Origin: a virus | Direction: 5' to 3' (one strand) | IMG/VR virus record: IMGVR_UViG_3300021961_007337 | Span: 1 to 30,562 of that record | Length of the DNA: 30,562 nucleotides | Shown here: piece by piece, positions 1,702 to 24,989 of the stretch | How the letters are laid out: each line of letters opens with the position of its first letter | Numbering within the stretch: position 1 is the first letter of the stretch | Notes under the pieces: generated by a model | The model's database searches: none | What the model was told of the DNA's origin: nothing | The model's input: only the letters and a program-made list of their open reading frames with translations | Program-made: the position numbers and the translations under genes

Positions 1702-1709
1702 AATAAATA
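1702..1709 (+). promoter_or_regulatory. Candidate T4-late-like promoter of the non-coding RNA
   Basis: AATAAATA, one base off the T4 late consensus TATAAATA and not overlapping any stop codon. The predicted start near 1715 is at the 5' edge of the hairpin-rich region that ends in the terminator at 2057-2093. Read-through from the promoter at 1193 is the alternative source of transcription. Confidence 0.4.
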
Positions 1710-1714
1710 GGGCA

Positions 1715-2093
1715 GAGACGGGTATTTCATGCGTAGATTAGCACCCCTATTCCACGCATACTCGGCACCGTAAAGGGACGAGAATCGTCGGGTAAGCCTT
1801 CGGGAACCCCTGACAGCCGAGAACTCGACTGGGCGAGTATAAACAGGATTTAGGCCCAGTGCGGCATATCGGTGTTACGCCGATATGCGAATCGTTGAAA
1901 CGTCGGAGTAGACTCTCCGGGGGCCACGAACGGTTCTTGCAGTCTCCAAGAATCGGCGGAGGCGTATCGAACGCCAAGCCGTGGTGATTATAATCACAGA
2001 CCTCACCAGAGGAAACTTGACCGTAGAAGGTCTGGTGTGATATTAGGAACGGTCGGCCGCCGCAGGAATCGCGAATTCCTGCGGCGGTTTTTT
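1715..2093 (+). ncRNA. Probable structured non-coding RNA, about 380 nt, no family recognised
   Basis: No convincing gene lies between 1570 and 2113, yet the stretch ends in a strong intrinsic terminator and is full of complementary segments in RNA-like nesting. Helices seen: 1729-1734/1754-1759; 1761-1766/1816-1821; 1828-1834/1854-1860; 1864-1872/1880-1888 (9 bp); 1904-1908/1915-1919; a three-way junction closed by 1924-1928/1980-1984 containing 1932-1939/1947-1954 and 1961-1965/1971-1975; and 1997-2003/2028-2034, which competes with 2004-2010/2031-2037. The loop AGACT (1910-1914) is complementary to the loop AGTCT (1941-1945), a possible kissing interaction, and TTACG in the loop at 1875-1879 could pair with CGTAA at 1769-1773. 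I could not match it to tmRNA, RNase P, a tRNA or a group I intron core. Large ornate phage RNAs such as GOLLD or ROOL are a thematic comparison only. Confidence 0.6.
2057..2093 (+). terminator. Strong intrinsic terminator
   Basis: A perfect 13-bp stem (2057-2069 with 2075-2087, loop 2070-2074) followed by six T. It ends the non-coding region; the promoter of the oxygenase gene begins six bases later. Confidence 0.95.
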
Positions 2094-2927: not shown

Positions 2928-2935
2928 TATAAATA
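2928..2935 (+). promoter_or_regulatory. T4-late consensus box TATAAATA
   Basis: An exact TATAAATA between genes, not overlapping a stop codon. The predicted start near 2941 leaves an eight-base leader before the ATG at 2949. Confidence 0.55.
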
Positions 2936-3555: not shown

Positions 3556-4218
3556 GTGGATAGAGATTATTCAAAAATCGTGGCGGTGCCCCCCGCCAAA
3601 ATCAATCACAGTATTATGCATGATGTGGTCATTTTGATGACCCCCAACGAACAGGAGGCCCTCAAGCAGATGATTGCAGCTGCCCCCGATGATGCGGTGT
3701 TTGTGGAATATGGGTGTGGGGGATCCACCTGTCTCTTTGCCGCTCATATGCGAGCCTCGCAAAAGCTGTACAGCATCGAACATCAAAAAGAGGGGTTTCA
3801 GCGTATACGCATGGTGCTCGGGGATATGCAGCGTGGGGGTGAAGTATTTCTCTTTTGGAAGCCCGCGGCGGGCGGACGCAAGATGGGGTTTCAACTGGGT
3901 GAGGATGTGCACATCATCGAAGAGCACGAATTTCGTCGTTACGGCACACCCACCGAGGAACTTCCGCACGGGCTGGAGGACTACATCAATGCTACCGGCA
4001 TCGATATCGATTGGTCGAAGGTGCATTGTGTCCTCGTCGATGGTGTGGCGCGTGGGGCCGTGTTGGCGATGATTCGGCATAAACTGTCACCGAACGCGAT
4101 GGTGGTTGTGCATGACGCCGCACAGCGCAACACTTGGTATACGTGGGTGGTGCAGCCATTATATGACGCGCACGGATTCGTAGACAGTATGTTGTGGTTG
4201 ACGGTGCCCAAAAAATAA
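3556..4218 (+). CDS. SAM-dependent methyltransferase-like protein, 220 aa
   Basis: The motif VEYGCGGSTCLFA (residues about 49-61) is a Rossmann-type SAM-binding motif I, followed by LYSIEHQKEGFQRIR, with the acidic residue expected at the end of strand 2. VHCVLVDGVAR and NAMVVVHDAA fit later strands of the fold. The substrate is unknown; similar small proteins in phages often sit beside glycosyltransferases, as here. The start is GTG at 3556 with GAGG about seven bases upstream; the next in-frame ATG would remove 20 residues but keep the fold, so it is an alternative. Confidence 0.65.
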   Translation: MDRDYSKIVAVPPAKINHSIMHDVVILMTPNEQEALKQMIAAAPDDAVFVEYGCGGSTCLFAAHMRASQKLYSIEHQKEGFQRIRMVLGDMQRGGEVFLFWKPAAGGRKMGFQLGEDVHIIEEHEFRRYGTPTEELPHGLEDYINATGIDIDWSKVHCVLVDGVARGAVLAMIRHKLSPNAMVVVHDAAQRNTWYTWVVQPLYDAHGFVDSMLWLTVPKK

Positions 4219-6062: not shown

Positions 6063-6800
6063 ATGGCTTCGTATGTATTGAATGATTCAACAGTAGAAAT
6101 TCTCAAGAACTTTGCGAGTATCAACAATCAGGTCGTGTTCAAGGCGGGCAGCGCCCAGCGGGCGTGTAACGACACCCGCAACTTTATCGCGGATGTGGAA
6201 CTCAATGAGCCACTGCCGCAGGAGTGTGCGTTGTATGAACTGAACCGTCTGCTCGGCATTATCGACACCTGCAAGAGCGATAAGCTGCCGACCATTGCGT
6301 TTGGCTCGTCATCGCTGGTCGTGGAGCATGACTACGGCAAGGTCACGATTCCGTATGCCCATGCGGATGTGGTCGCGGCGCCGCCTGGCGTGCAGTTCCA
6401 TCTGAAGAAACCGATTGCGACGTTCGATCTGCCGTCGGCCCTGTGGACGAAGATCAAGCGGACGGCCGCCGTGCTTCAGACGACGTCGTTGCACATCATC
6501 GTCAACACGGACGGGGAACTGGTGCTGAAGCTCGTCAACGAGAAGGATAAGGGTGGCGACGCCTCGGGGTCGGCGGCGTATAACATGCCCAACACCAACG
6601 TGCAGGAAGCGGTGGACAATACGTGGGCGGTGAAGTTCGATGCCCTCGAACTCATTCCCGGCGACTATACGGTCGAAGTCGGTGAAATCGGGAATAACAC
6701 CAATAGCAACACGTTGTTCGGCATGTTCTTCAAGCTCAACGACCCGACCAAGAAGGTCACCTATCTCACGTCTGGTCATGTCGTGAAGACGCGCACCTAA
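6063..6800 (+). CDS. 45: DNA polymerase sliding clamp (T4 gp45-like)
   Basis: A 245-residue protein beginning MASYVLNDSTVEILKNFASINNQVVFKAG, which follows T4 gp45 (LLKNFATINSGIMLKSG) closely. The length is slightly above the 228 aa of T4. The clamp is a trimeric ring that tethers the polymerase and in T4 also activates late transcription together with gp33 and gp55, which is relevant because late-like promoter boxes occur here. The ATG at 6063 has GAGGA five bases upstream; an upstream in-frame start overlaps the previous stop and is less likely. In the T4 order gp44 would follow directly; here a homing endonuclease gene intervenes. Confidence 0.92.
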   Translation: MASYVLNDSTVEILKNFASINNQVVFKAGSAQRACNDTRNFIADVELNEPLPQECALYELNRLLGIIDTCKSDKLPTIAFGSSSLVVEHDYGKVTIPYAHADVVAAPPGVQFHLKKPIATFDLPSALWTKIKRTAAVLQTTSLHIIVNTDGELVLKLVNEKDKGGDASGSAAYNMPNTNVQEAVDNTWAVKFDALELIPGDYTVEVGEIGNNTNSNTLFGMFFKLNDPTKKVTYLTSGHVVKTRT

Positions 6801-18450: not shown

Positions 18451-19519
18451 GGGAGGAAAATCTGACGCGATTCGGTATAATAGCGAACTTGGTGTATTAT
18501 ACGGTTTGATAGGAAATGGAAAATTTAATCCAAAACGACCAGAAAAGTCTCTTCCCGCATCAAAGTTAAGCAACCCTACGTCGTGCTATCGTGACATCGT
18601 CCGTTTAGTAGCACCTAACTTTATGCCTAACATCTTTATGATTTGGGCAAATCGTGCACCAATCATTAAAGAAAAAATTCTTGCCAAGCAAGGAAGTCTG
18701 CCTCGCAAATTTGGATGGAGTGGTGGCCAAAACATTGCCGGTGGTGTGTCAGATATTGCATTTGCGAGTGGAGGTACGCTCGGGATTAGTGTTAAAGCAG
18801 AAGGTGGAATCACTCTCGCCAATCTTAGCCCAAAGGCCCTCGGGATTCAAACAGACAAAGGTGTTGACGTATTTGACATGTATGCGGGTAAAGAATATCT
18901 GTTAATGAAGCAACAGATTTTTAAAGATGTTCTGACTGCTGCAAAGCGGCAACCGAATAAACCGCTGATTCCAATCAGTAAATACGGAATTACCTACGTC
19001 TCTAGAACAACGCAATTCCAGATTAAGTTGAAAACTGGCGTTCTAAACATGAGTGAGGCCGACATTATGAGTGCGGTGCGAAAGAACGCACAATGGCAAC
19101 GTGTGTTTGGTGATTGGTTTCAGGCAAACTTTATTGAGAAGCGGTCGTATGCGGCTCCCCTGTACAATAAAATTGCCAAAGTCTTCGAACTAACAATGGA
19201 AAAAAATTTAGCCAAGGCTAGCAAACTCGCGGGAATTTTACGCTTTGGTGATAGACCCTACTATTATCTCAGCGCGAAGAATTTATATTACGTGCCATCA
19301 TTTCATGAGGTTACGGATCTTCAACTGAAGAAAATTCGATACGCGAAACCAAAGGGCACCGCACAGCGATTCATCGCGGAAATTGGTCGAGCAGATAGTG
19401 ATGACAATGCCGAACTGGACATTTACATTCGATATGCAAATGGCATGTTTGAAAGTAATCCAACTGTGCGAATTCAAAGTTTAAAAAATCCGCAATATAT
19501 CGGATGGGAATTATTATAA
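18404..19519 (+). CDS. PD-(D/E)xK-like protein, candidate nuclease, 371 aa
   Basis: A nuclease-like core is visible in GGVSDIAFASGGTLGISVKAE (residues 113-133, given here only by its key residues Asp117, Ser129 and Lys131): an acidic residue, a beta hairpin, then S-x-K in place of the usual (D/E)-x-K. Similar SD...GxSxK proteins occur in environmental T4-like phages without known function. It begins MISFQQFYLSEMKL. The gene is markedly more AT-rich than most of the window, suggesting separate origin. GGAG lies seven bases before the ATG at 18404, which overlaps the end of the methyltransferase gene by 47 bases. Pairing with methyltransferases suggests a restriction-type nuclease, but the Ser substitution and lack of a known relative leave this open. 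Confidence 0.6.
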   Translation: MISFQQFYLSEMKLDEGGKSDAIRYNSELGVLYGLIGNGKFNPKRPEKSLPASKLSNPTSCYRDIVRLVAPNFMPNIFMIWANRAPIIKEKILAKQGSLPRKFGWSGGQNIAGGVSDIAFASGGTLGISVKAEGGITLANLSPKALGIQTDKGVDVFDMYAGKEYLLMKQQIFKDVLTAAKRQPNKPLIPISKYGITYVSRTTQFQIKLKTGVLNMSEADIMSAVRKNAQWQRVFGDWFQANFIEKRSYAAPLYNKIAKVFELTMEKNLAKASKLAGILRFGDRPYYYLSAKNLYYVPSFHEVTDLQLKKIRYAKPKGTAQRFIAEIGRADSDDNAELDIYIRYANGMFESNPTVRIQSLKNPQYIGWELL

Positions 19520-19546
19520 ATAACGCACCACCCACAAATTGATTTA

Positions 19547-24981: not shown

Positions 24982-24989
24982 TATAAATA
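24982..24989 (+). promoter_or_regulatory. T4-late consensus box TATAAATA
   Basis: An exact late consensus between genes, not at a stop codon. The predicted start near 24995 gives a leader of about 16 bases with GGGA before the ATG at 25011. It precedes a probable virion gene, fitting late expression. Confidence 0.65.

Follow-up and report, generated by a model that had tools for sequence, protein, structure and literature searches.

The described systems closest to the locus reported here are the ROOL and GOLLD RNAs, which show that phage RNAs can assemble through kissing loops (PMC12286853), the Theta (HDV-like) ribozymes found by phage tRNAs (PMC10879173), and the Pistol self-cleaving ribozyme, for which the position of the cut has been described (PMC4604425). 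In Bacillus phage Troll, Cellulosimicrobium phage DS1, and Microcystis phage MaeS, a Pistol ribozyme coincides with a stop codon or closely follows it (in MaeS, a match by blastn only); in Gordonia phage GMA2 (1201-1257 of sequence L069), one directly follows the tRNA-Trp of a tRNA array. This placement right after a gene or tRNA fits a separating role for Pistol in general. In DS1 (L071), the ribozyme at 1202-1271 begins at the stop codon of the gene, and no gene is annotated in the next ~480 bases; the folding energy of this non-coding stretch is not unusual (z = -1.2). At 480-891 of the GMA2 sequence, a tmRNA gene (94.6 bits) occupies the place of an annotated short hypothetical protein, and a YrlA-like match below threshold lies at 916-1025.

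We analyzed a virus record from IMG/VR (30,562 bases), the whole of which is called the window below. The replication genes in it are of the T4 kind: the family B DNA polymerase is ~37% identical to cyanophage polymerases, and a clamp loader and a UvsX-like recombinase accompany it. The window is part of a T4-like phage genome. An earlier note had described a large structured RNA in a gene-free stretch at 1702-2093. The gene-free stretch, the helices, and the terminator were located where the note had placed them, between a winged-helix protein gene and a 2-oxoglutarate oxygenase-like gene. Its range was too short at the 5' end, since the structure reaches roughly 100 bases further, to the stop codon of the winged-helix gene (~1571). 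A large structured phage RNA with a kissing loop is supported by covariation and withstands two of the note's refuting conditions, a lack of covariation and a missed gene; it is probably two RNAs separated by a Pistol ribozyme, not one. Our main reading, to which we give a probability of about 0.62, is that a single transcript would be cut by Pistol, releasing a trans-acting structured RNA of ~203 nt. The locus is laid out as follows:

1193-1220, + strand: sigma-70-like promoter (TTGACT-16-TATACT, extended -10), a consensus match only, preceding the winged-helix gene
1291-1569, + strand: winged-helix protein gene, 92 aa (Pfam HTH_39, E = 6e-6), the conserved upstream neighbor
1823-1894, + strand: Pistol ribozyme (Rfam match), predicted cut G1889/A1890
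1890-2092, + strand: predicted released RNA, ~203 nt
2055-2089, + strand: intrinsic terminator, hairpin and T-rich tail, present in all lineages
2114-2653: 2-oxoglutarate oxygenase-like gene, the next gene 3' of the RNA in the window
2928-2935, 19515-19522, and 24982-24989, + strand: T4 late promoter element TATAAATA

The oxygenase-like gene is followed in the window by a gene for an 88-aa protein and then by a SAM-lyase-like gene (2949).

The structured RNA was also found in six other virus contigs, which together with the window make up five distinct lineages. Over the RNA, L003 and L004 (the latter the same contig as G001) share 98.8% identity with the window; L005, L006, L042, and L075 (IMGVR_UViG_3300005805_001200) are distinct from it. 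Homologs were found via the winged-helix protein, short RNA motifs, and the neighboring glycosyltransferase-like gene; IMG/VR was scanned by short exact motifs and close protein matches, which may miss distant relatives. The winged-helix gene lies upstream of the RNA in all five lineages, and a SAM-lyase-like gene lies somewhere downstream in all of them. The directly downstream gene differs, being the oxygenase in the window, a homolog of the 88-aa protein in L005, and the SAM-lyase-like gene in L042 and L075. Pistol scores 62 bits in L075, which also has the winged-helix gene, the 3' RNA, the hairpin of a terminator, and the SAM-lyase-like gene; the 5' domain, described below, is absent from it. 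Because L075 keeps ribozyme, 3' RNA, and terminator without the 5' domain, these three form the conserved unit, exactly the part retained in all five lineages. In L077, the reading frame after a winged-helix-like gene comes within 60 bases, too soon to leave room for the RNA. L076 carries an array of nine tRNA genes (757-2000) just upstream of its glycosyltransferase-like gene, where the window has the structured RNA, and the related virus contig L032 carries a permuted tmRNA gene (6573-6761, 77.9 bits).

Wider searches were also made. The scan of 84,980 species genomes, by the 5'-domain motif only, gave 20 matches, none with the rest of the motif; blastn against 50,697 phage and 72,556 plasmid records gave Pistol-core or trivial matches only; and a model of the 3' pseudoknot recovered only the known copies in 52 related records. 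The sole 17-mer match, in L041, is a chance match in coding DNA, the five extra matches of the 3'-pseudoknot pattern in viral contigs are unrelated hairpins, and the small minus-strand matches of the 5' model reflect the palindromic hairpin at 1730-1758. A Pistol-core-like DNA match of 88% identity lies under an annotated YodL-domain protein in a Paenibacillus rhizovicinus plasmid (NZ_CP048288.1, 111954-111996). No description of the released RNA was found in open PMC papers, which is not proof of absence, and it belongs to no described family that we found.

The Pistol ribozyme (RF02679) at 1823-1894 scores 63 bits against a cut-off of 34.5 and is the only Rfam family above cut-off in the whole window. 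The note had named no RNA family for the region, but this segment belongs to a described one; in the remainder nothing else reaches an Rfam cut-off, and a permissive search of the region gave nothing credible beyond Pistol. Helices P1, P2, and P3, the P1-loop pseudoknot, and the two-base cut junction are all present in the Rfam alignment, and applying the cut position of PMC4604425 to this alignment predicts self-cleavage between G1889 and A1890. Pistol is above cut-off in the window, L004, L042, and L075 (the relatives scoring 66.3, 62.1, and 55.8 bits), just under it in L005 (34.1 versus 34.5), and weak in L006 (23.3), where P3 has a long loop. P2 changes in step, with GAU/AUC in the window, CAG/CUG in L006, and AUU/AAU in L042 and L075. 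Counting against the release model, P2 is poor in L005, and in the window and L042 an A takes the place of the usual U after the predicted cut. The junction accordingly reads GA in these two and GU in L004, L005, L006, and L075.

For the region 1700-2095, the folding energy gives z = -5.4, a large share of which comes from the terminator; the 3' piece without the terminator gives z = -2.2 and the pseudoknot-rich 5' piece z = -0.35. Because of the terminator's share, energy alone proves little, and the comparison among relatives carries the case. Covariation is present in both the 5' and the 3' parts, in alignments of five or six sequences, two of them nearly identical, so that counts per helix are small. 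The predicted released RNA, ~203 nt in the window and 203-274 nt in relatives, contains the following elements:

1904-1955, + strand: kissing hairpins K1 (1904-1908/1915-1919) and K2 (1931-1939/1947-1955), loop-loop pairing 1910-1914/1941-1945
1924-1984, + strand: three-way junction, outer stem 1924-1928/1980-1984 with one compensated pair, arms K2 and 1961-1975
1985-1996, + strand: variable hairpin between junction and 3' pseudoknot, differing in length and sequence in every lineage
2004-2054, + strand: 3' H-type pseudoknot, stems 2004-2009/2032-2037 and 2019-2024/2049-2054, conserved loop AGGAAACUU

Across K1, the kiss, K2, and the 3' pseudoknot, 31 pairs were counted (alignment A9). Cells pair in 96.8% of cases, against 34-42% with partners slid; two-sided changes are seen in 17 of the 31 pairs, compared with 2-6 for slid partners; shuffles average 10.1 such pairs and a covariation score of 0.204, where the alignment scores 0.641. 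The loop-loop complementarity that the note had picked out is borne out by compensated changes, with AGACU/AGUCU in the window and L042, GGAGU/ACUCC in L006, and AGAAU/AUUCU in L075; four of five pairs form in L005. By chance, two such loops of one sequence would share a five-base match with a probability of ~0.5%; its retention by compensated changes in separate lineages is far stronger evidence than this. The kiss may form within one molecule or between molecules. L042 has a second, partial copy of the K2 hairpin (ACAAACTGCTCTTGCAGTCTCCA, 2385-2407) after the three-way junction, a local duplication with the same kissing-loop letters. The three-way junction was likewise confirmed in its outer stem, counted from explicit strands, as MAFFT misaligns its 3' strand in L006 and L075. 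The proposal of two mutually exclusive 3' helices survived in one half: 2004-2010/2031-2037 has its six counted pairs formed in all sequences, three with two-sided changes, whereas 1997-2003/2028-2034 keeps 5/5 core pairs in two lineages and 4/5 in three, uncompensated, and switching between the two lacks comparative support. The elements that the note did not contain are the Pistol, the 3' H-type pseudoknot closed by 2019-2024/2049-2054, and a 5' extension with two pseudoknots.

This extension belongs to a 5' domain (1571-1758) of seven helices, two of which close pseudoknots; it is followed in the window by an insertion:

1577-1602, + strand: hairpin directly after the stop codon, without a T-run, three pairs with two-sided changes
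1604-1657, + strand: pseudoknot 1, stems 1604-1613/1633-1641 and 1621-1627/1651-1657, four pairs with two-sided changes
1664-1723, + strand: pseudoknot 2, stems 1664-1670/1708-1715 and 1689-1694/1718-1723, inner hairpin 1674-1688
1730-1758, + strand: hairpin abutting Pistol in L005, L006, and L042, one compensated pair
1759-1822, + strand: lineage-specific insertion (hairpin), absent in L005, L006, and L042

In alignment A3, 97.8% of the cells of the 5' domain pair, against 39-47% with partners slid, and 8 of 55 pairs show two-sided changes, against 1-3 when slid; none of 500 shuffles reached the observed value of either. Most of this covariation signal comes from the hairpin after the stop codon and pseudoknot 1. 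Pseudoknot 2 is the most conserved block of the domain, with a sequence kept almost throughout, which suggests that it is bound by something; the pairing of its closing stems is plausible only, because they are invariant and offer no variation in its support. The insertion occurs only in the window and its near-identical relatives; in L005, L006, and L042 the 5' domain runs almost directly into Pistol. A second pseudoknot suggested in the note, 1769-1773 with 1875-1879, is complementary (CGTAA/TTACG), but its 5' strand lies inside this insertion, so that comparison lends it no support. By-eye resemblances to a group I intron, an HDV-like ribozyme, RNase P, and tmRNA had no Rfam model match, and pseudoknot 2 differs in helix order from an HDV-like fold; Spot 42 RNA (RF00021) reached 23.7 bits against a cut-off of 80, largely from the terminator.

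From this arrangement we infer co-transcription and cleavage in the cell. One transcript is proposed because, upstream of the RNA, no promoter-like site other than that at 1193-1220 is plausible; this site, a consensus match, belongs to the winged-helix gene. The window scan found no such site between 1220 and the predicted Pistol cut, and a second promoter-like site inside the RNA itself is probably a chance match. L075 has a comparable sigma-70-like site at 3809-3836; none was scored in L042. At pseudoknot 1 in L005 and L042, GATAAATAAT resembles a T4 late promoter, so a second transcription start inside the 5' domain is possible in these lineages. The transcript would run through the winged-helix gene, in most lineages the 5' domain, Pistol, the 3' RNA, and the terminator, which has an imperfect T-run in L005 and L075. 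Cleavage between G1889 and A1890 would leave a message ending in the 5' domain and Pistol, stripped of its terminator, and a separate RNA of ~203 nt with its 5' end set by the ribozyme and its 3' end by the terminator. Where present, the 5' pseudoknots may protect the new 3' end of the message from exonucleases. The released RNA would fold via the two kissing hairpins, the three-way junction, and the H-type pseudoknot, and would be a stable trans-acting RNA holding a protein or its own copies, not a leader for the gene downstream. A stable trans-acting or self-assembling RNA is our preferred guess at function because the RNA is separately terminated, its direct downstream neighbor changes, and its tertiary contacts are kept. 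We consider it improbable that this is an undescribed family of RNAs freed by a ribozyme, not by a nuclease or their own promoter, in which the kiss joins copies into an RNA-only assembly and the 5' domain, in most lineages, tunes the ribozyme as a natural aptamer-ribozyme pair.

Among the alternatives, a cis-regulatory leader or attenuator, whose pseudoknots would sense something and control terminator read-through into the oxygenase-like or SAM-lyase-like gene, is unlikely. The position of the pseudoknots right before the terminator and the presence of a SAM-lyase-like gene downstream in all lineages agree with it. However, the directly downstream gene varies, antiterminator pairing is not conserved, and a ribozyme that cuts the RNA off the upstream message would be no help to a leader; the SAM-lyase-like gene, moreover, has its own T4-late-type promoter in the window, one of three plus-strand copies of TATAAATA (0.31 expected by chance) lying directly before it. 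We also doubt that the ribozyme serves only the winged-helix message, removing its terminator and limiting or timing its stability, with the 3' RNA as a by-product. Pistols of other phages do follow a gene and have protein-coding genes downstream, and the winged-helix gene is always upstream here; a by-product would have no need of 3' tertiary contacts, the kiss included, kept by compensated changes. There is less still to recommend one large RNA whose 5' domain and 3' RNA stay together as a nicked complex after the cut, or without it: both domains are kept, side by side, in four of five lineages, but L075 has the 3' RNA without the 5' domain, and no pairing was seen between the two. Chance folding or a missed gene is very remote, for although stop-free stretches occur on both strands and a 15-codon ORF (1649-1696, MIGRELPSGKLTFHP) is kept in four lineages, the 5' and 3' parts covary, the stop-free stretches differ between relatives, indel lengths do not divide by three, no protein reading accounts for the region, and the ORF changes mostly non-synonymously, I2T being a compensating change in pseudoknot 1. 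This ORF is probably not translated for its own sake, because its changes track the RNA pairing. A short ORF across the 3' pseudoknot is, like it, conserved only as RNA letters, its changes being mostly non-synonymous or in step with the pairing, and runs past the pseudoknot in L042 and L075.

Under the preferred reading, release of a trans-acting RNA, Pistol at the 5' edge of a structured RNA would have a concrete job, freeing a noncoding RNA with a defined end. The locus further contributes a phage RNA whose kissing loop is backed by covariation and which is compact enough for chemical probing and cryo-EM. Like ROOL and GOLLD, it is phage encoded and rich in pseudoknots and kissing loops; no Rfam model of either reached its cut-off in the window or was listed by the permissive search of the region, and the 3' RNA is ~200-270 nt, against >600, and comes with a ribozyme. 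As with the Theta ribozymes by phage tRNAs, a phage ribozyme would set the end of an adjoining noncoding RNA (PMC10879173), but the class differs, the end is the 5' end of the following RNA and not a tRNA 3' end, and the product is not a tRNA; no tmRNA or tRNA-like domain was found by ARAGORN or Rfam. With other Pistols it shares P1, P2, P3, the P1-loop pseudoknot, and a phage setting (PMC4604425); it differs from them in the A after the predicted cut in the window and in that a conserved structured RNA with a terminator of its own follows it, not a coding gene.
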